Assembly: GCA_031285645.1 (NCBI GenBank)
Contig: JAITVU010000042.1
Coordinates: 1-13,158, forward strand
Reading direction: 5' to 3'
DNA: 13,158 bases
DNA from: Oscillospiraceae bacterium
GTDB taxonomy: Bacteria; Bacillota; Clostridia; Oscillospirales; Ruminococcaceae
Program-made: the position numbers and the translations under genes
The notes under the pieces: generated by a model
Databases searched by the model: none
Told to the model about the DNA's origin: nothing
The model's input: the letters and a program-made list of their open reading frames with translations, nothing else
Shown: piece after piece, positions 5,280 to 12,963 of the stretch
Layout: each line of letters opens with the position of its first letter
Position numbering within the stretch: position 1 is the stretch's first letter

Positions 5280-6161
5280 ATGAGCCGCGTTGACAATACA
5301 GCTGTTAAATCCCGATCCCTTTTTGGCGATGTGGTCACCGATATTGTGGGGTGCTTTGTTTTTTCTGTCGGCGTACAGTGCTTCAGCGCGCCCAACAATA
5401 TCGCCCCGGGCGGCGTGTCGGGTATTGCCATCCTGATCAATTATATGTTCGGGCTGCCCATTTCTTTTTTGTCGCTGGCGCTGAACATCCCGTTGCTTGT
5501 GATGGCCTGGTTTTTTTTGGGGCATGTTTTCACACTGCGTACGCTTAAAACCGTTATTATTCTCACGGCGACGCTCTGGATATGCGAGCAGTTCCTGCCC
5601 GTTTTCAGGGGCGAGATGATCTTGGCCGCGCTGTGCAGCGGCGTGCTCGAGGGTATTGGGCTCGGCCTTGTTTTCGCGCGGGGGTCAACGACAGGCGGGA
5701 CCGATGTGGCGTCCAGGCTTATCCAGATCAAGCTGCCCAATGTTTCGGTCGGTCGGCTGATGCTGATGGTCGACGGCCTTGTCTTGCTGAGTTCGGCGAT
5801 CGTATATGGGCATATTGAAAACCCGCTTTACGGCTTAATCGCGATCTTCACCTCAACGCGCATTATTGACAGTATTTTATACGGCCTTGACACGGGTAAG
5901 GTTATGATGGTTGTGACAAAAGCGCACGCGGACATATCCAGGGCGATCAATGAGGAGCTCGGGCGCGGCTGCACCATACTGCCCGCGAAGGGATCATATA
6001 CGGGTGAAGACCGCAGTGTTTTGTTCTGCGCCGTTCGAAAAACACAGTTTCACGCGATCAAGCAGCTTATCTACAGGATAGATGCGGGCGCGTTTGTTGT
6101 GGCGCTTGAGGCCAATGAAGTCATTGGCGAGGGTTTCAAGCCGCCGAAAGAACAGAAATAG
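5280..6161 (+). CDS. YitT family membrane protein (DUF161/DUF2179)
   Basis: A 293-residue integral membrane protein of unknown molecular function, from a family abundant in Firmicutes. About five or six hydrophobic segments span residues 15-200: FVFSVGVQCF, the loop PNNIAPGGVSGIAILINYMF, SFLSLALNIPLLVMAWFFLG, TVIILTATLWI, then VLEGIGLGLVFARGSTTGGT and LMLMVDGLVLLSSAIVYG. The motifs APGGVSGIA and FARGSTTGGTDV are typical of the family. The soluble C-terminal domain (about 205-285) with GRGCTILPAKGSYTGEDRSV matches DUF2179. ATG 5280 follows AGGGAGG closely. It starts 31 bases after mrnC with no terminator between them, so it is probably the last gene of the rplU operon. Confidence 0.93.
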   Translation: MSRVDNTAVKSRSLFGDVVTDIVGCFVFSVGVQCFSAPNNIAPGGVSGIAILINYMFGLPISFLSLALNIPLLVMAWFFLGHVFTLRTLKTVIILTATLWICEQFLPVFRGEMILAALCSGVLEGIGLGLVFARGSTTGGTDVASRLIQIKLPNVSVGRLMLMVDGLVLLSSAIVYGHIENPLYGLIAIFTSTRIIDSILYGLDTGKVMMVVTKAHADISRAINEELGRGCTILPAKGSYTGEDRSVLFCAVRKTQFHAIKQLIYRIDAGAFVVALEANEVIGEGFKPPKEQK

Positions 6162-6192: not shown

Positions 6193-6210
6193 CAATCCGG
6201 ATTTTTGCTC

Positions 6211-6313
6211 ATACCAATATCCAATTAAAAAGCAGATAAAAGCGAGCGATGCGTTTTAGGTAAAACGCGTTCTGATCGACGTTTTTATCGCTCTTTTTAA
6301 CGGATTTTGGTAT
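6211..6313. repeat. 103-bp palindromic repeat (R103), copy 1
   Basis: This imperfect palindrome runs from ATACCAATATCC to GGATTTTGGTAT. Nested arms are ATTAAAAAG/CTTTTTAA, GATAAAAGCG/CGTTTTTATC, CGAT/ATCG and a terminal hairpin GCGTTTT-AGGT-AAAACGC. A second copy of identical length lies at 12839-12941, with about 85 of 103 positions matching by hand count. It begins 18 bases after the yitT terminator. Its right end touches the stop codon of the minus-strand Asn-rich ORF, for which it could form the 3' stem-loop. It has no coding capacity and looks like a MITE-like or REP-like element. Confidence 0.85.
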
Positions 6314-6480
6314 TATTTGTAGTCCTGCATGTCGTTTTTATTCTGGGCGTTGCCGCCCTTTTTGTTGTTCGCCTTGTTGTTTTGCGTGTTGGTGTTATTG
6401 GTGTTGTTTGCCTGATTAGCGGTGTTATTTGTCTGGTTATTCATGTTGCTGCCACCATTGTTATTTTTGTTCTTAGCCAT
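6313..6480 (-). CDS. Asn-rich 55-residue protein, possibly spore-associated
   Basis: ATG at 6480-6478 reads MAKNKNNNGGSNMNNQTNNT and ends ...KGGNAQNKNDMQDYK with TAA at 6315-6313. The ribosome-binding site AGAGGTGA lies about five bases upstream of the start. Asn makes up well over a third of the residues; the rest are mainly Lys, Thr, Gln, Gly and Ala, with one aromatic and no Cys. The chain is low-complexity, basic, very hydrophilic and probably disordered. I recognise no exact family. The composition is reminiscent of small acid-soluble or minor spore proteins, and gpr occurs in the same window, but the acidic Gpr cleavage motif of SASPs is absent. The strong Shine-Dalgarno and clean frame argue for a real gene. 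Its stop overlaps the end of the R103 repeat by one base. Confidence 0.7.
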   Translation of the reverse strand: MAKNKNNNGGSNMNNQTNNTANQANNTNNTNTQNNKANNKKGGNAQNKNDMQDYK

Positions 6481-6592
6481 CCATTTCACCTCTTTTCATG
6501 GTATCTTTATTATTTTCCATCCGGAATTGATATATACACATGGAGCGCGAAAACGCATAAAGATTTTGACATTCACAGTTGTCGGGGGCGGC

Positions 6593-6607
6593 ATATTGTA
6601 ACAATAT
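6593..6607. promoter_or_regulatory. 7-1-7 palindrome, candidate operator
   Basis: ATATTGT-A-ACAATAT is a perfect 7-1-7 inverted repeat in the divergent region between the Asn-rich ORF and reverse rubrerythrin. The architecture resembles Fur/PerR-family boxes, though the bases do not match the standard PerR consensus. Confidence 0.4.
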
Positions 6608-6620
6608 CACTGAACTCTAA

Positions 6621-6641
6621 TTTATACTAATATAGTATAAA
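6621..6641. promoter_or_regulatory. 21-bp palindrome, candidate operator
   Basis: TTTATACTA-ATA-TAGTATAAA is a perfect inverted repeat with 9-bp arms, ending 35 bases before the rubrerythrin -10 element. The bases ATACTAATAT inside it are identical to the terminal ten bases of R103 copy 2. Confidence 0.4.
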
Positions 6642-6675
6642 TTAATCATTTGTTCATAAAGATACGCAATTTTTA

Positions 6676-6684
6676 TGTTATAAT
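6676..6684 (+). promoter_or_regulatory. extended -10 promoter of reverse rubrerythrin
   Basis: TG-T-TATAAT is an extended -10 element with a consensus hexamer at 6679-6684. No good -35 lies at 17 bases, as is common for extended -10 promoters. The leader to the start codon is about 50 nt. Confidence 0.6.
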
Positions 6685-6741
6685 GAATCCAAACATCAGC
6701 ATACTAAGGAAAGAATCATTTTCTGAAAGGATGTGACTATT

Positions 6742-7290
6742 GTGGTAAAGTATATTTGCACAGTCTGTGGGTATGTTCATGAGGGGGACAGCGCACCTGA
6801 ATTTTGTCCGCAGTGTAAGGCGCCGCAGAATAAATTTAAATTGATGGATCAGGAAAGCGGCATGGCTTGGGCGGACGAACACCGCATCGGCGTGGCCGAG
6901 GGCGTTGACCCTGAGATCCTCGAAGGATTGCGCCAGAATTTTATGGGCGAGTGTACGGAAGTGGGGATGTATCTGGCTATGAGCCGTCAGGCGGACCGTG
7001 AAGGTTTCCCGGAAATTGCCGAGGCCTACAAACGCATCGCTTTTGAGGAAGCCGAGCATGCGGCCAAGTTCGCCGAACTTCTGGGCGATGTTGTGGCGGC
7101 CGATACGAAGAAAAACCTTGAGTTGCGCGTGGAAGCCGAGTACGGCGCCTGCGAGGGCAAAAAGAAAATCGCCACGAAGGCCAAACAGCTCAATCTCGAT
7201 GCCATACATGACACCGTGCATGAAATGTGCAAGGACGAGGCCAGGCATGGATGTGCCTTTAAGGGCCTTTTGGATCGGTATTTCAAGTAA
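6742..7290 (+). CDS. reverse rubrerythrin (N-terminal rubredoxin + diiron ferritin-like domain)
   Basis: A cytoplasmic non-haem iron peroxidase that, in anaerobes such as Clostridium acetobutylicum, reduces hydrogen peroxide with electrons passed through the rubredoxin site. The domain order is reversed relative to classical rubrerythrin. A rubredoxin-type knuckle comes first, with Cys6-x2-Cys9 and Cys22-x2-Cys25 ([16 protein letters not shown]). A four-helix ferritin-like domain follows from about residue 55, with Glu/His ligands in [30 protein letters not shown] and [11 protein letters not shown] 6742 is chosen (182 residues) because GGATGTGA lies five bases upstream. GTG 6733 would sit on top of that site. 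It is a single gene with its own promoter and terminator. Upstream palindromes suggest redox control. Confidence 0.93.
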
Positions 7291-7341
7291 ATCGCCCCTT
7301 TCCCTTTGCTTTGAACCGATTTCCATGATAAGAAATAACAA

Positions 7342-7375
7342 AAGCAGGCCGGACCTTATTGGGTCCGGCCTGCTT
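7342..7375. terminator. terminator hairpin after reverse rubrerythrin
   Basis: AAGCAGGCCGGACC and GGTCCGGCCTGCTT form a perfect 14-bp stem with a six-base loop, 51 bases after the stop. The T tract is short (CTTCAT), but the stem is very stable. It could act on both strands. Confidence 0.75.
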
Positions 7376-7421
7376 CATATCAGCGGCATAGTTGACACTG
7401 CCTGCGGCGGGCAAAGAGATC

Positions 7422-7464
7422 GTCATTGCGGTTTGAAATGATCGTTGTTTTAAACCGCAATGAC
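7422..7464. repeat. 17-bp stem inverted repeat without U-run
   Basis: GTCATTGCGGTTTGAAA (7422-7438) pairs with TTTTAAACCGCAATGAC (7448-7464) with one G-T pair and a nine-base loop. The outer 13 bp are perfect. It lies between the convergent rubrerythrin and Gfo/Idh genes, but neither strand has a T tract after the stem. It is therefore either an unusual terminator for the minus-strand gene or a small palindromic repeat element. Confidence 0.7.
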
Positions 7465-7556
7465 CCAATAGGAATTCGCTATATTTAGCCAATTTCCCGC
7501 CTGATATGGCCTTTCTATTTTAAAGCTTGTAATCCTTTGTGTTGCCCGGCAATGTA

Positions 7557-8717
7557 TTATGTACCGAAGCTGTTCGTCGCGTCAAAAACCCGGGCCGCGG
7601 CGACGTCTTTTTTCTTTGAGGTGGCGCGGCGCTTGTTGAGCTCGACCAGGAAAAGTTCTTCATCAAAGGGTATATCAACCGTGGCGTCGAGCCAGCTGGA
7701 TAAATGGATCGCGTTTGAAAGCATAAGGCCGTTGATGCCCTCCTGGCCGTCGGCGATAAGCGGCGTCCCGCGCAGAATATTGCCGGCAAAGGCGTTGAGG
7801 ACGCCCACATGCTGCGGGTTTTCACCGTCCAACTCAACGTCGGTGATTTCAACGGGTTGCTTGTCAAAGCCGCCTGCGGCCGTGAGGCAGAAGTCACGCT
7901 CATTCTGTTCAAGTTTGTGCATTGTCACCTTGCCGCCCTCACAGATGAGCTTGCCCATTTCAAGGGTGATTTCAAGCCGGTTTGTTCCGGGCAGGTCGCC
8001 CGTTGTGGTGATGAAGACGCCTGTCGCGCCGTTTTCAAACTCGAGGTAGGCGGTAACATCGTCCTCTACCTCGATGTCATGCCATTTGCCGTTGTGGCAA
8101 AAACTCCTCACGCGCGTCGGCAGGCCGCATATCCACTGGAGCAGGTCGAGATTATGCGGACACTGGTTGAGCAGGACGCCGCCGCCCTCGCCGTCCCAGG
8201 TGGCGCGCCAGCTGCCGGAATCGTAGTAAGCCCTGGTGCGGTACCAATCCGTTATAATCCAGTTGACGCGCTTTATGGCGCCCATGTCGCCGCTCGATAT
8301 GATCTCCTTCATCTTTCTGTAAACGCAGTCAGTGCGCTGGTTAAACATCATGCCGAATGTTTTGCCGCTCTTTTTGGCGGCGGCGTTCATCTCGCGCACC
8401 TGAAGCGTGTAAACGCCGGCCGGTTTTTCACACAGGACATGCAGCCCCTTTTCAAAAGCCCGTATGGCCAGTTCCGTATGCTGATAGTGCGGTACGGCGA
8501 TAAGGATGCTGTCGCAGACGCCGCTTGTGATCATCGCGTCGCCTTCCTCGAACAGAGGAATTCCGGGGAAGTTTTTCTGAGCGAATTCCCGGCGTTCCGG
8601 GCTCCTGTCCGCGATGGCCGACAGTGTGATGTCGGGCGTTTTGCCGGCGAGGATATTTTGGACATGGTTGGTTCCCATATTGCCGATCCCGATAATACCG
8701 AGCTTGATTTTGGACAT
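7557..8717 (-). CDS. Gfo/Idh/MocA family NAD(P)-dependent oxidoreductase
   Basis: A cytosolic dehydrogenase of the glucose-fructose oxidoreductase/inositol dehydrogenase family, acting on a sugar, cyclitol or related polyol; the substrate cannot be read from the sequence. The 386 residues contain the N-terminal Rossmann motif GIIGIGNMG (7-15) and CEKPAG with the family EKP at 97-99. The GGGVLLNQCPHNLDLLQW stretch (178-195) carries the catalytic-region His188. The C-terminal alpha/beta domain is complete. ATG 8717 is preceded by AAAGGGAG at a good spacing. It stands alone, with no transporter or isomerase beside it, so the pathway is open. Its mRNA would carry a leader of about 210 nt with tandem hairpins if the -10 at 8936-8941 is used. 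Confidence 0.92.
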   Translation of the reverse strand: MSKIKLGIIGIGNMGTNHVQNILAGKTPDITLSAIADRSPERREFAQKNFPGIPLFEEGDAMITSGVCDSILIAVPHYQHTELAIRAFEKGLHVLCEKPAGVYTLQVREMNAAAKKSGKTFGMMFNQRTDCVYRKMKEIISSGDMGAIKRVNWIITDWYRTRAYYDSGSWRATWDGEGGGVLLNQCPHNLDLLQWICGLPTRVRSFCHNGKWHDIEVEDDVTAYLEFENGATGVFITTTGDLPGTNRLEITLEMGKLICEGGKVTMHKLEQNERDFCLTAAGGFDKQPVEITDVELDGENPQHVGVLNAFAGNILRGTPLIADGQEGINGLMLSNAIHLSSWLDATVDIPFDEELFLVELNKRRATSKKKDVAAARVFDATNSFGT

Positions 8718-8767
8718 GTAATCTCCCTTTCGTGATAAAATTGACCTGCCGTATGCGGAGGGATTTT

Positions 8768-8881
8768 AATGACACGGCGGGTCTGATTCCCCGCGGCTTG
8801 CCGCGCCACATCTGAATCCCCGCCGCCCCGCAGGGCGGTATCCTTCGGATACACCGTCTGCTTGCAGCGGTGAGTGTCATT
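8768..8881 (-). repeat. tandem hairpin array in the Gfo/Idh leader
   Basis: Outer arms AATGACAC (8768-8775) and GTGTCATT (8874-8881) enclose a row of stems: CGCGGC/GCCGCG (8792-8805), CCGCCC/GGGCGG (8823-8838), GTATCC/GGATAC (8838-8852) and ACCG-T-CTGC/GCAGCGGT (8853-8871). A near direct repeat, TCTGATTCCCCGC and TCTGAATCCCCGC, starts at 8782 and 8811. The whole is a multi-branch structure closed by an 8-bp stem. It lies between a candidate promoter and the start codon of the minus-strand gene. It may be a cis-regulatory RNA or a repeat-type element. The rest of the 539-base gap (8718-9256) holds only the hairpins and terminator listed separately. Confidence 0.6.
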
Positions 8882-8935
8882 TATTCTTTACTCCGGCTGC
8901 CATAAATCAACAGATTTTGAAATGACGATAAGTCT

Positions 8936-8941
8936 ATTATA
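8936..8941 (-). promoter_or_regulatory. candidate -10 of the Gfo/Idh gene
   Basis: The minus strand reads TATAAT here, a consensus -10 hexamer, after GTGTTAATTCATG. No convincing -35 is seen at 16-18 bases. It is the best promoter candidate upstream of the gene. Confidence 0.4.
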
Positions 8942-9012
8942 CATGAATTAACACAAAAGGAAATGCCCGATCCGGCCCGTCGGCGAAAAAAAGGTGAAAG
9001 ATCGTGAACGGA

Positions 9013-9072
9013 CTTTAAAACCTTCCGGTTTTGAAGCGTCAGGCAGTGTCTGGCGGCACGCCGGAGGCGTGC
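9013..9072. repeat. paired hairpins between gpr and Gfo/Idh
   Basis: CTTTAAAACC-TTCC-GGTTTTGAAG (9013-9036) is a 10-bp stem with one G-T pair. GCACGCC-GGA-GGCGTGC (9056-9072) is a perfect 7-bp stem. The arrangement TTTGAAGCG, hairpin, GCGCTCAC resembles that at 10265-10316. Confidence 0.5.
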
Positions 9073-9210
9073 GCGCTCACTCTGTACGGTGGAAAGGCCG
9101 CTGAGTATAAAATGCCGATTATTTATGGTGAAAATTAAGAATAGCAGCAATGTTATTTTATTGCTTTCGGCGGGGCCAGAGGGAATTTGGCTTTTTATGC
9201 TTACCGATAT

Positions 9211-9240
9211 AAAACCCTCGAAACACGAGTGTTTCGGGGG
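9211..9240 (-). terminator. Rho-independent terminator of gpr
   Basis: CCCTCGAAACAC and GTGTTTCGGGGG (plus-strand reading) form a 12-base stem with one mismatch or wobble. On the minus strand it is followed by TTTTATATC. It lies 17 bases beyond the gpr stop. Confidence 0.8.
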
Positions 9241-9256
9241 TTCATAAACCGCACTA

Positions 9257-10135
9257 TCAGCTGACGAGATAACTGATTTCTTCAAGTGTCATTTCGCTGT
9301 GCAAGGCCTTGTTGATGGCCAGCGCGAGCGTTTTGCACGCGTGGCCGATCAAAACGTCAATTTCGCGCGGCGTAATCATCATTGTGTCCGGATTGCCGTT
9401 GAGCGGCGCGCCGGTGTCCTGTCCTTTGCCGCTCATGATATCGTTGGCAAAGGTTGTGGCGTCCACGACGGTAGGGATGCCGATCGACACGACCGGAATG
9501 CCCAATGTCTCGGTGCTCAGCTCTTTTCGGCTGTTTTGGACGCCTGATCCGGGGGAGATACCGGAGTCGGCGATTTGAATTGTGTTGCCGAGCCGGGATG
9601 TGTCCCTGGCCGCCAGCGCGTCTATAACAATAACGACCGAAGGCTTAATATCGTTGACGATCGACTTGATGATTTCCGAGGTTTCGATGCCCGTCTGCCC
9701 CAATACGCCCGGCGCGATGGCGGCCGTCGGCCTTAAATCGCCGAGTCCGGCCTGTTTGGCCGCTTCGGCGTTAAAATGGCGCGTGGCCAGAACCTGGTGT
9801 ACGGTCCTGGGGCCGATGGCGTCCGGCGTTATATCGTTGTTGCCGAGACCCACGACAAGCGCAAGCCCGTCCTTCGGCAGAAAAGAGGAGATCTCATCCG
9901 CAATTTTGATGATCTCTTCCTCATCCACATCAACAGCGCTGTGAAACGGCGGCGTAATAACGGTGACATACTTTCCCTGGGGCTTTCCGATCAGTTGGGC
10001 GGCTTCCTGATCAGTCACTTCAACAGTATTAATCTTAAGGTTGCCAAAGCTGCGCTCATCCTGTGTGATACCATTGGGCAGATTGCCGCTGTGCGGCTGC
10101 GCGCCCTCCATGGCAAGATCTGTACGGAACGGCAT
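9257..10135 (-). CDS. gpr: germination protease Gpr (peptidase A25)
   Basis: Gpr is made as an inactive zymogen in the forespore. After autoprocessing it degrades small acid-soluble spore proteins during germination. Family motifs are present in order: an N-terminal FRTDLAMEG (the conserved R-T-D-L-A near the maturation site), VVGLGNNDITPDAIGP with an active-site-region Asp, VIDALAARDTSRLGNTIQIA, DSGISPGSGVQNSRKELS and GIPTVVDATTF. I chose ATG 10135 (292 residues) because AGGA lies about eight bases upstream. ATG 10144 (METMPF...) and TTG 10168 are in-frame alternatives that lengthen the propeptide. The gene is divergent from rpsT, an adjacency also known in Bacillus. spoIIP, often downstream of gpr, is absent here. 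It is probably under forespore sigma factors, but I see no convincing sigma-G site. Confidence 0.95.
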   Translation of the reverse strand: MPFRTDLAMEGAQPHSGNLPNGITQDERSFGNLKINTVEVTDQEAAQLIGKPQGKYVTVITPPFHSAVDVDEEEIIKIADEISSFLPKDGLALVVGLGNNDITPDAIGPRTVHQVLATRHFNAEAAKQAGLGDLRPTAAIAPGVLGQTGIETSEIIKSIVNDIKPSVVIVIDALAARDTSRLGNTIQIADSGISPGSGVQNSRKELSTETLGIPVVSIGIPTVVDATTFANDIMSGKGQDTGAPLNGNPDTMMITPREIDVLIGHACKTLALAINKALHSEMTLEEISYLVS

Positions 10136-10264
10136 AGTTTCCATCCTTCCCTTTGCTCTTGATACCAAAAACCGATTAAGACGCAGACTGTAACAGGATT
10201 TTTGCTTAAATGAGCCTTGAGTTGCTTCATCTGCGCCTGGTGCCGGTATGGTTTATGTTTTATT

Positions 10265-10311
10265 GCGTGTCAGATCAGATTTGAAGCGGCGCGTGAAACG
10301 CGCCGACACGC
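10265..10311. repeat. 14-bp bulged hairpin upstream of gpr
   Basis: GCGTGTC (10265-10271) pairs with GACACGC (10305-10311). Directly inside the right arm, GGCGCGT-GAA-ACGCGCC (10288-10304) forms a perfect stem with a three-base loop. The 16 bases 10272-10287 bulge out on one side. It lies in the long gpr-rpsT divergent region. Confidence 0.6.
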
Positions 10312-10408
10312 TCACAGCGTATTGGCGATGCAATCAATTAAGGCTCGTACGCGGCCCTGCGGCAATTGCCCCGGCTTAAATGCTGATGCATTGTAAAGTT
10401 AACTGATT

Positions 10409-10548
10409 ATATAGTCATATAGGTTTAAAACTGATACAGTTTTAAACCACAGCGGGATTTGCCCGCTGTCACGCTTAGGTGGATATGACTATATTGGCTG
10501 CTTCGCGTCGCGCGTCATTTTAAAACTGCGTCACATTTTAAACCTATA
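10409..10548. repeat. nested inverted-repeat element with alternative folds
   Basis: Fold A is a three-way junction. ATATAGTCATAT (10409-10420) pairs with ATATGACTATAT (10483-10494), closing two perfect hairpins: GGTTTAAAACTG-ATA-CAGTTTTAAACC (10422-10448) and ACAGCGGG-ATTTG-CCCGCTGT (10449-10469). Fold B is incompatible with it: TATAGGTTTAAAA (10418-10430) pairs with TTTTAAACCTATA (10536-10548), and CAGTTTTAAA (10437-10446) pairs with TTTAAAACTG (10519-10528). The element contains no ORF and ends about 60 bases before the rpsT promoter. Apart from this and the 10265-10311 hairpin, I see nothing else in 10136-10610. Confidence 0.7.
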
Positions 10549-10610
10549 CAGCTATAGTATCCGCACATTTTTTCTGTTCTTGCACGATACAGGCATATTT
10601 TAAAAAAGTA

Positions 10611-10639
10611 TTGCAATTAAACACAAAAAATGGTATGAT
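10611..10639 (+). promoter_or_regulatory. sigma-A promoter of rpsT
   Basis: TTGCAA (10611-10616) and TATGAT (10634-10639) are separated by 17 bases, and TGG just before the -10 makes it an extended element. The leader to rpsT is about 98 nt. Confidence 0.75.
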
Positions 10640-10743
10640 TACTTCTAGTCTGTGAAAGTTTGCGCTGTATTATGTGTGCATGAATGAGACATATATAAGA
10701 TGCGTAAAATACTGGTATTGTTGTTTTATGAGGAGGTGAAAGA

Positions 10744-11004
10744 ATGCCGAACATTAAATCCGCCAAAAAAAGGGTCAAGGTTATAGCGGCCAAAAGCGCC
10801 CGCAACAAGGCAACGCGCTCCGAATTGAGGACGTCGATTAAGAAAGCCGAACTCGCATTGGCCGGCGACGGCGCTGATAAAACCCAGTTGGTTCGCCAGG
10901 CAATGAAAAAAATAGATTGTGCCGTTACCAAAGGGATTTTGCACAAAAACTGTGCCGCCAGAAAAAAATCCGGTCTTGCCGTGAAGCTCAACCATGCCGG
11001 TTAA
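10744..11004 (+). CDS. rpsT: 30S ribosomal protein S20
   Basis: A primary 16S rRNA-binding protein of the small subunit. The 86 residues are normal in length and strongly basic and helical. The N-terminal MPNIKSAKKRVKV, the central RNKATRSELRTSIKKAE and the C-terminal GILHKNCAARKKSGL are diagnostic. A perfect AGGAGGTGA lies five bases before ATG 10744. It is a single-gene unit with its own promoter, divergent from gpr. Confidence 0.98.
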   Translation: MPNIKSAKKRVKVIAAKSARNKATRSELRTSIKKAELALAGDGADKTQLVRQAMKKIDCAVTKGILHKNCAARKKSGLAVKLNHAG

Positions 11005-11040
11005 GCTTTAATATGGTAACTGTATAGACGCGCTTTTCAC

Positions 11041-11082
11041 AGGCCTGTTTTCCCTTTTTTGGGAGCGGGTCTGCTTCTTTTT
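11041..11082 (+). terminator. probable terminator of rpsT
   Basis: AGGCCTG and CGGGTCT pair with two G-T pairs, continuing after a small bulge into TTCCC/GGGAG around a six-T loop. GCTTCTTTTT follows. It lies 37 bases after the rpsT stop. The stem is imperfect. Confidence 0.5.
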
Positions 11083-11183
11083 CGGTATGCGCCGACAGAT
11101 CAAAAAATTATATTGGATGTTAGCAGTAGAAAAAGCCACACGTCAAAAAATCAAATGCCTTGCCGGGTAAAGGGGATGGGTCC

Positions 11184-11399
11184 ATGACCATAAAGATTCC
11201 GAAATTGACCAAAAACAAAGCGGCGCAAAATGCGCAGGGCGAGAAAAAAAGCCGGCGCCGCGACCTCAGCGTGGCGATCGCGTTTGTTTCCGCCATATCC
11301 ATTCTGCTTTTAGTCGCGGGCTATGTGATCAGCCGTCTGGCAAGTGACCGCGCGAACAGGGAAAAGTGGAAAGATTACAACGATTGCGGCTGGGCCTGA
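11184..11399 (+). CDS. small single-span membrane protein, function unknown
   Basis: A 71-residue protein from ATG 11184, with AGGGG eight bases upstream; an in-frame TTG at 11160 is less likely. It has a Lys/Arg-rich cytoplasmic N-terminus (MTIKIPKLTKNKAAQNAQGE and KKSRRRD). One hydrophobic helix follows at about 37-58 (SVAIAFVSAISILLLVAGYV). The short outer tail DRANREKWKDYNDCGWA ends in an acidic/aromatic segment with a single Cys. The positive-inside rule puts the C-terminus outside. I recognise no family. It is a monocistronic gene lying between the rpsT terminator and a strong terminator at 11551. Confidence 0.7.
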   Translation: MTIKIPKLTKNKAAQNAQGEKKSRRRDLSVAIAFVSAISILLLVAGYVISRLASDRANREKWKDYNDCGWA

Positions 11400-11547
11400 T
11401 AGCAGGCGCGGTATAGTTCAAACGGCCGCACTACAAAGAACGTACAAGCCTGTCGCAAGCTACAGGGCGACTTTTAATGAAACGATGGGCTTTATTCCCG
11501 CCCTTTTCGCTTCCGCTTGCGGCGGAGAGTTTTGTTTTGATGTGCTG

Positions 11548-11589
11548 AAAGGCCCGTATCCCGAGTCATCGGGATACGGGCCTTTTTTT
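11548..11589. terminator. strong terminator shared by convergent genes
   Basis: GGCCCGTATCCCGA and TCGGGATACGGGCC form a perfect 14-bp stem with a four-base loop, extended by AAA/TTT and followed by seven T on the plus strand. It overlaps the last base pairs of the minus-strand MFS gene and serves the plus strand best. The 150 bases between the small membrane gene and this stem hold no supportable gene. Confidence 0.93.
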
Positions 11590-12790
11590 ATGATACACGG
11601 TTTTTAGCCCGCTTTTTTATGATAATCATGAACAGAATCACAAGCGTGCTGACGACGGTAACGGACAGCACAAGGGTACCGTAGATCATGTATGTGGATT
11701 TCATCCCGATCCGGTCCGCTATGTAGCCGCCCAGAATATTGCCTAAGATGCTGCCGACGCCGCCCTGGAAAAATACAAGCAGGCTTTGTCCTGTGGACTT
11801 GAGGTCGTCCTCCATCTGATTGTTGATAAAGGTGACGCAACTGTAGTAGACGGCCATATAGCTCATACCATGAAATATCTGGGCGATGAGGACTGAGGGA
11901 AGGTTATCGGCGCCGGCCATTAAAAAAGTGCGCAGGGCGGTGACGAAACCGCTGAAAAGCAGAACGGGGGCCGCGCCGACGCGCGCCAAGATTCTGTCGA
12001 GGATTAAAAGGACGGGTATTTCGCTCATGGAGCCCACAATCATCGTCATGCCGATTTCCTTGCTGCCGTATCCCATTTCACGCAGAAAAACGCCGATAAA
12101 CCCGCCGCAGCAGCTCAATGCAATCTGTGTGACACAGGCCATAAACAGAATAAAGATCAACGTTTTATTTTTAAAGACGCGTTTAAAATCAATCTTGACC
12201 TTTTCCCTGTTTTTTACTTCGGTTTTTGGCATTTTGAAAATAAGGATCAGTAAAATAGCCAGGAAAAACGAGGCCATCAGAAAAGCGAAATTGCCGTCGA
12301 GCGCCACAATACGGCCGGAGAAAAACGAGAAGACGCAAAACCCCACCGTGCCGCCCATACGCACAAAAGAGAATTTAAAATCCGTTTTTTCAAGATGGGA
12401 TACGGTAATAGCGTCGCTGAGCGGAATGAGGGCGGTGTAAAACGCGAGGAAAAGAAGGGCGACAAAAAAAAGTGTCCAGAAGGATTTGAAAAACAAAAAA
12501 AGCAAAACAGTAACCATGGACCCGGCGGTGGCAATTTTAAGGACGCCGGTCCGGTTGCCGGATTTGTCACTGAGCATGGACCAGATAGGGACGATAAAAA
12601 GAGAACACAGCGGGCCGAGCGATATGAGAATACCGATCCTGAATGTATTGATACCCAGTGAAGCATAGTGTGCCGACAGGAAGGGATTGTACGCCGCGCT
12701 GGATAAATAGAATACCGTATTGAAGCATAAAAACAGCATAATAGTACGGCCATCCGGCCCAAAGTTTGGCCAACGCAGGCGAAATCTCAA
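11588..12790 (-). CDS. MFS transporter, 12 transmembrane segments
   Basis: A 400-residue major facilitator superfamily permease in the cytoplasmic membrane. About twelve hydrophobic helices are visible in two six-helix halves, separated by a charged loop near 190-208 (KMPKTEVKNREKVKIDFKRV). The loop motif after helix 2 is MLSDKSGNRTGVL, the MFS motif-A region in a weakened form. GGYIADRIGMKS is the equivalent in the C-terminal half. The overall look fits the LacY-like MFS_1 group of sugar or nucleoside symporters, but the substrate is unknown. The start is TTG 12790 with GGGGGAG six bases upstream; no ATG occurs earlier than residue 18. R103 copy 2 lies 49 bases upstream, so the promoter may be in or near the repeat. 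Confidence 0.9.
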   Translation of the reverse strand: MRFRLRWPNFGPDGRTIMLFLCFNTVFYLSSAAYNPFLSAHYASLGINTFRIGILISLGPLCSLFIVPIWSMLSDKSGNRTGVLKIATAGSMVTVLLFLFFKSFWTLFFVALLFLAFYTALIPLSDAITVSHLEKTDFKFSFVRMGGTVGFCVFSFFSGRIVALDGNFAFLMASFFLAILLILIFKMPKTEVKNREKVKIDFKRVFKNKTLIFILFMACVTQIALSCCGGFIGVFLREMGYGSKEIGMTMIVGSMSEIPVLLILDRILARVGAAPVLLFSGFVTALRTFLMAGADNLPSVLIAQIFHGMSYMAVYYSCVTFINNQMEDDLKSTGQSLLVFFQGGVGSILGNILGGYIADRIGMKSTYMIYGTLVLSVTVVSTLVILFMIIIKKRAKNRVS

Positions 12791-12838
12791 TCAAAACTCC
12801 CCCAACACCGCAACAGGGCTGCGGCGCAAAATATGGTT

Positions 12839-12941
12839 ATACTAATATCCCATTAAAAAGCAGATAAAATGGCGCGATGCGTTTTGGAAAATAGGCGTTT
12901 TGCGCGATAATTTTATCGCTCTTTTTAACGGATATTAGTAT
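12839..12941. repeat. 103-bp palindromic repeat (R103), copy 2
   Basis: It runs from ATACTAATATCC to GGATATTAGTAT, which are perfectly complementary ends. Inner arms are ATTAAAAAG/CTTTTTAA, GATAAAAT/ATTTTATC and CGCG/CGCG. It has the same length as copy 1 at 6211-6313. Position 5 and its partner position 99 have changed together (C-G in copy 1, T-A here). It is located upstream of the MFS gene. Confidence 0.85.
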
Positions 12942-12963
12942 TATTCACGCTTGGGCATGCACA

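Follow-up and report, generated by a model that had tools for sequence, protein, structure and literature searches.

Small palindromic elements in an Oscillospiraceae bacterium, their triplet target duplications and a likely IS630-type partner

The insertion sequence (IS) IS630 duplicates the dinucleotide TA at its target, and the REP/BIME repeats are built of short REP units that come with a tyrosine transposase (RAYT). TA is also the target duplication of the classical Tc1/mariner elements, and three-base TAA duplications are reported for the eukaryotic Fot (pogo) elements. RUP (repeat unit of pneumococcus) is described as an intergenic, base-paired repeat of about 107 bp without an open reading frame (ORF), present in about 108-110 copies and with IS630-family-like ends, whose movement has been attributed, as a proposal, to IS630-Spn1 and whose insertion is described at sites with TA (PMC3049150, PMC2229807). 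Here we compare with these systems a family of 101-bp palindromic elements represented by two copies in a 13,158-bp stretch of DNA from an Oscillospiraceae bacterium (GCA_031285645.1, contig JAITVU010000042.1; the whole stretch is referred to as the window). The small elements are very probably miniature inverted-repeat transposable elements (MITEs) that are moved by an IS630-family transposase recognizing their ends and inserted at TNA triplets, nearly always TTA. The source is a 2.24-Mb metagenome-assembled genome (MAG) of 428 contigs that is 70.6% complete, and the window is all of its contig C147.

Dispersed copies, empty sites and triplet duplication

An earlier note on the window described two 103-bp copies at 6211-6313 and 12839-12941, and these are indeed present with 85 of 103 bases identical (82% over 112 bp). 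Their bounds are slightly corrected here, as the element proper is 101 bp long, reads TACYAATATCC...GGATATTRGTA and is flanked by TTA triplets. Copy 1, of subfamily A (TACCAATATCC...GGATTTTGGTA), lies at 6212-6312 between TCA at 6209-6211, a degenerate target duplicate, and TTA at 6313-6315, and copy 2, of subfamily B (TACTAATATCC...GGATATTAGTA), lies at 12840-12940 between TTA triplets at 12837-12839 and 12941-12943; both are on the forward strand and both were identified from the sequence, by BLAST and with a covariance model. They are A+T-rich (GC 0.36 and 0.34 vs 0.51 for the window), neither is spanned by an ORF of at least 80 amino acids, and each folds end to end as had been claimed (-36.5 kcal/mol, z -5.8, and -40.1 kcal/mol, z -7.2), with none of 200 shuffles folding as well.

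The genome-wide covariance-model search that the earlier note called for finds the element at about 47 places in its own genome, so that a family of only two copies is excluded. Copy 1 as a BLAST query gives 49 matches, and the model, built from 20 copies (A1, R1), gives 55 matches, or 47 distinct places once 8 opposite-strand duplicates are removed and with each of two nested-pair sites counted as two places. The flanks are of different sequence in most of the loci inspected.

Movement of the small element is demonstrated by empty sites within this genome. Joining the flank common to several element-bearing loci reconstructs a 120-bp palindromic repeat that stands intact in 8 places (97-99% identity in seven of them and 89% in one; a ninth full-length match has only 75%) and whose halves surround the element in 6 places, one of which holds a shortened element. 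Empty sites read GGC-TTA-TATGG and filled ones GGC-TTA-element-TTA-TATGG, with small variants, the single TTA becoming two, and both the empty sites and the target duplications that the earlier note had proposed to look for are seen at this repeat. Subfamilies A and B both occur at the same TTA of the repeat, hence there were two insertions there or a later conversion. In contigs C331 and C417 a sister element (TACTAATCC...GGATTAGTA) has entered the element itself at a TTA, which is again doubled. Empty versions of the window's own two sites were sought in the genus, where no relative covers either junction.

Two further observations concern these landing sites. The 120-bp repeat (TGAACC...GGTTCATAAT; L306-L313 and L314-L335) is a second dispersed palindrome of this genome with at least 8 intact copies, and it looks like another mobile element that serves as a landing site for the MITE. 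The nested sister element sits at the same internal position in both L040 (C331:2536-2743) and L034 (C417:1247-1420), and since the arrangement is found twice the composite may itself have moved.

Outside the source genome the element is patchy. BLAST of 60 other genomes found no element save one 32-bp match in G048, which sits in sequence read as uvrB coding and is taken as chance. With the covariance model at an E-value of 0.01, 6 of the 60 were matched: G012, a 99% complete genome of another genus, with 50 matches; G004, of the same genus as the window, with 22 matches that reduce to 14 places after removal of opposite-strand duplicates; and G002, G025, G031 and G033 with 1 to 4 each, the G033 match (L060) being a shorter hairpin without TACTAA ends that is probably unrelated. 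Family-wide, at an E-value of 1e-4, the small element is present in 10 of 197 genomes (its own included) and 7 of 125 genera, in a search that scored 19 candidates per genome and in which copy counts are lower bounds.

The candidate IS630-type partner

In the mechanism that we propose, the small elements, which have no transposase gene, would be moved by the enzyme of a larger element. An IS630-family transposase would recognize the TACYAAT... ends and insert the element at TNA triplets, which for the 100-101-bp type are almost always TTA, the triplet would be duplicated, the spread would need no host function, and the hairpin would be the consequence of inverted ends that meet via a symmetric interior.

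Transposase-bearing elements with ends of this kind are found in relatives. The end TTATACTAAACACC is matched 257 times in G012 with at most one mismatch, about two per element, and a longer end pattern matched 7 of the 197 genomes family-wide, compared with 0 for the reversed control. Two loci from the end-pattern search carried IS630-type transposase genes. Intact IS630-type elements with TACTAA ends occur in two related genomes: L185 (G144), the cleanest copy, has 1129 bp between TAA triplets with a helix-turn-helix (HTH) ORF (165 aa) and a DDE ORF (169 aa), and L168 (G222) is a similar copy between TTA triplets. By Pfam the partner has HTH and DDE_3 domains (PF13358, E 9.5e-22), and the DDE ORFs score 132.4 and 130.1 bits against the NCBIfam IS630 model NF033545 (cut-off 100), while the HTH ORFs alone reach 68 and 54 bits, under the cut-off. 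No solved structure matched the DDE domain by sequence. Some members of the IS630 family have two ORFs joined by a -1 frameshift, and the two open frames of these copies, with a stretch of A residues where ORF1 ends, would likewise be joined by a frameshift.

In G012 the ends of its two incomplete IS copies match the ends of its small elements at 29/30 and 26/30 positions, and the four ends in the window share 16-18 of 20 bases with the best match among 76 IS ends taken from other genomes. Of 12 genomes tried, 4 have the DDE ORF, as do 9 of the 197 family genomes. Where the small element is present the transposase occurs in 3 of 10 genomes, vs 6 of 187 where it is absent (Fisher p 0.007); two of the three double-positive genomes belong to one genus and the two 197-genome draws are taken as the same. 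The earlier note's proposal of a non-autonomous mobile family that is not tied to one gene is thus supported by the many copies, the paralogous empty sites, the target duplication and these transposase-bearing elements. The search for a transposase with matching ends, which it had also suggested, gave elements with the same kind of ends in related genomes and nothing in the element's own incomplete genome.

The target duplication of the partner was examined in relatives of the transposase from a one-genome-per-species scan, which found 280, mostly titled Oscillospiraceae or other Clostridia, of which the best 80 were kept. The pattern used located both the left and the right end for 38 of these 80 (18 lacked a right end and 24 a left end), and triplet agreement was counted with no bonus given for equal triplets when placing the ends. 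TNA flanks the left end in 36 and the right end in all 38; the two triplets are identical in 25 of the 38 vs 10.5 expected, and the middle base is the same in 26. Hence this IS630 group duplicates three bases, and the partner has TNA triplets instead of the 2-bp TA duplication of the IS630 family. The matched triplets are TAA (9), TTA (8), TGA (6) and TCA (2), such that TTA and TAA are balanced (8:9).

Several points weigh against an IS630-type partner. Of the 10 genomes with small elements, 7 are without the transposase. Both G012 IS copies are incomplete, one with a partial DDE stretch and the other without a visible left end, and in G144 and G222 the ends of the IS and of the local small elements share TACTAA and much of ...TATAGACAAA but differ between these. 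A fragment of this transposase group is held by G001, a genome of the window's genus in which the covariance model finds no small elements. Finally, there were no transposase matches in the source genome with one ORF, the alignment and PF13358 as queries; the MAG is 70% complete, which makes the missing partner weak counter-evidence. We consider that an IS630-type transposase would have acted on the small elements and would have mobilized them in this strain as well, whose lineage would once have had such a partner.

Within the window's genus, PF13358 gave matches in 3 of 11 genomes (G004, G010 and G001). The main DDE_3 gene of G004 belongs to another group and is without these ends, and G010 has only distant pieces of other groups, with about 25-36% identity. 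The G001 fragment, at a contig edge (L338, G001:C10, 2-257), is 60-64% identical to this transposase group over 73 residues and is followed by a group-like end, TTTGGTA-TAA; G001 was outside the 12-genome sample for the DDE ORF and was not among the matches of the 197-genome alignment search. Two candidates for an autonomous copy among long inverted pairs in G012 were rejected, as L125 (1615 bp) and L144 (934 bp) are separate small elements that enclose genes read as major facilitator superfamily (MFS) or host genes.

Elements of other sizes and arrangements were seen as well. Three loci in G012 (L124:4531-4822, L127:4587-4826 and L137:14043-14256) represent a subfamily of about 210-290 bp whose ends are TTATACTAAT.....ATCGTTCTATAGACAAA and in which two members have short tandem units in mid-element, and L158 (G222) and L159 (G144) are elements of about 400 bp with the same kind of ends and, by eye, no evident transposase. 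The elements at L011, L019, L028 and L029 adjoin further repeated sequence (about GGCGGGAATAAATA), and at L028 both outer ends are of a different kind (GCTATAATATCC).

Target orientation, the palindrome and other readings

Insertion of the small element into TTA is one-way in five genomes. Read in the orientation of the element, TTA/TTA flanks 17 of the 23 copies in the source genome for which both flanks were read (none has TAA/TAA, with 6 others), 58 of 64 copies on 40 stretches of G012 (one TAA/TAA and 5 mixed or mutated), 13 of 15 in G151 (the remaining two being TGA/TGA and TAA/TAT), all 5 in G226, and 6 of 7 in G125 (the other TCA/TCA). The samples cover 15 of the 16 matches of G151, 5 of the 6 of G226 (the sixth being the other strand of another match), and all 7 and 13 of G125 and G177, respectively. 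There are exceptions: the 13 copies of G177, which are nearly identical and therefore probably young, show no one-way lock (TGA/TGA 4, TTA/TTA 3, TAA/TAA 3, one mixed and 2 not placed), and, by eye, L174 in G144 has TAA/TAA and two of the three G025 copies have TAA on the left. The notion that TTA is carried by the element instead of being duplicated is opposed by the TGA/TGA and TCA/TCA copies. The plainest account of the one-way insertion would be an asymmetric pair of ends.

There are other possible accounts of this asymmetry. It is conceivable, if improbable, that this is an old palindromic family of several genera that enters TTA one way, unlike the autonomous IS630-type elements with ends of the same kind, by an asymmetric route in which the whole hairpin and not its ends alone would be the substrate. 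We also regard it as unlikely that the 100-101-bp type is mobilized asymmetrically, as a circle with a TTA junction or as a folded single strand, and not by two-ended IS630 insertion. Such a route is suggested by the ratios of TTA/TTA to TAA/TAA (58:1 in G012, 17:0 in the source genome, 13:0 in G151, 5:0 in G226 and 6:0 in G125, compared with 8:9 for the IS copies), but the matched TGA/TGA and TCA/TCA copies and the one TAA/TAA copy fit ordinary duplication with an asymmetric end pair, and G177 (3:3), G144 and G025 also speak against it.

The TTA target also bears on the surroundings of the two copies in the window. As the earlier note pointed out, copy 1 adjoins a stop codon, as its right TTA supplies the TAA stop for an Asn-rich ORF of 55 codons that runs the other way (6313-6480, minus strand). 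Insertion at stop codons was rejected as a rule, since in G012 an open frame of at least 150 codons is terminated by 2 of 61 copies (a count in which some elements figured on both strands) vs 1.9% of control TTA sites. Copy 1 lies downstream of a YitT/DUF2179 membrane protein gene (5280-6161, plus strand; from the ORF list and a domain search), and copy 2 is 49 bp upstream of the start of an MFS transporter ORF (11588-12790, minus strand; PF12832, PF07690), also in agreement with the earlier note. In G012, with ORFs from a simple script and most stretches chosen around known copies, 3 of 64 copies are within ORFs vs 2022 of 3100 control TTA/TAA sites, and gaps between convergent genes are enriched (23 of 59 copies vs 195 of 962 control sites).

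The earlier note saw selection for the hairpin in a compensatory change, and its base readings are correct: copy 1 has C-G at pair 5-99 and T-T at pair 8-96, and copy 2 has T-A at both. The single compensatory pair is, however, a subfamily difference (UA in 10 and CG in 7 of 20 copies) and by itself proves little. Among 20 chosen copies of the source genome 95.5% of cells pair, 22 cells are changed on both sides vs 8.7 in shuffles, and such two-sided changes affect 6 of 38 pairs (shuffles 3.4; 16 of 500 as high). An alignment of 18 hand-chosen copies from several genera, which also served to predict the structure, retains pairing through two-sided changes at 24 of 37 pairs (shuffles 12.1; 0 of 500 as high), including 7 of the 8 pairs of the apical helix. 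If the ends are bound by one protein, their covariation is expected anyway, but covariation at the apex would call for use of the palindrome itself or for copying between its arms. The covariation along the whole palindrome between genera thus fits selection for the palindrome, or its copying.

This covariation, together with the enrichment of the G012 copies between convergent genes, is what might be expected of a structured RNA or bidirectional terminator under selection, with mobility incidental. We find this quite unlikely, given that nothing in the window matches Rfam at the gathering score, presence is patchy (10 of 197 genomes), the flanking sequence differs between most loci and the ends would covary if one protein binds both. 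The remaining suggestion, that the elements are repeats of REP/BIME type or like ERIC and were spread by a different enzyme such as a REP-associated tyrosine transposase, is highly improbable, and the REP-like part of the earlier note finds no support, for despite being palindromic, mostly intergenic and present in many copies the elements are about 101 bp long with true terminal inverted repeats, 3-bp target duplications, IS630-type ends and a likely IS630-type DDE partner, the RAYT gene not having been searched for.

Comparison with known systems

With a MITE moved by an IS630-type transposase as the preferred reading, a gene-less element family of mostly uncultured Clostridia gains a likely partner, a rule for its targets and empty sites inside one genome, and its movement becomes testable. 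Five genomes show one-way TTA insertion, G177 and the IS copies do not, and this raises a simple and testable question on the way in which target orientation is selected by enzymes of the IS630/mariner type; the full-length covariation poses the question of whether palindromes are kept for the enzyme, for an RNA or by arm-to-arm copying. Among the papers listed from searches of the open-licence literature, we recognized none that reports this family or describes TNA duplications for IS630 elements of bacteria. Within that literature the triplet duplication and the one-way target use are new, and a MITE of IS630-type is a known kind of element.

The partner resembles the IS630 family, of the IS630-Tc1-mariner group, in its HTH and DDE_3 domains and in a DDE ORF above the NCBIfam IS630 cut-off, and differs from it in the use of TNA, with identical triplets in 25 of 38 pairs, in place of TA. 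The small elements share with REP/BIME and ERIC their palindromic, intergenic and dispersed nature, and differ in size, ends and likely partner enzyme (for ERIC, PMC3049150, PMC2229807). Their likeness to RUP, taken from its description, is closer, as both are short, intergenic, ORF-free, base-paired and multi-copy with IS630-type ends, whereas the host group is another one and insertion here is at TNA with a 3-bp duplication (including TGA and TCA, which hold no TA) and one-way into TTA, compared with insertion at sites with TA for RUP. Hence, by analogy, the small elements very probably work like RUP while not being identified with it.

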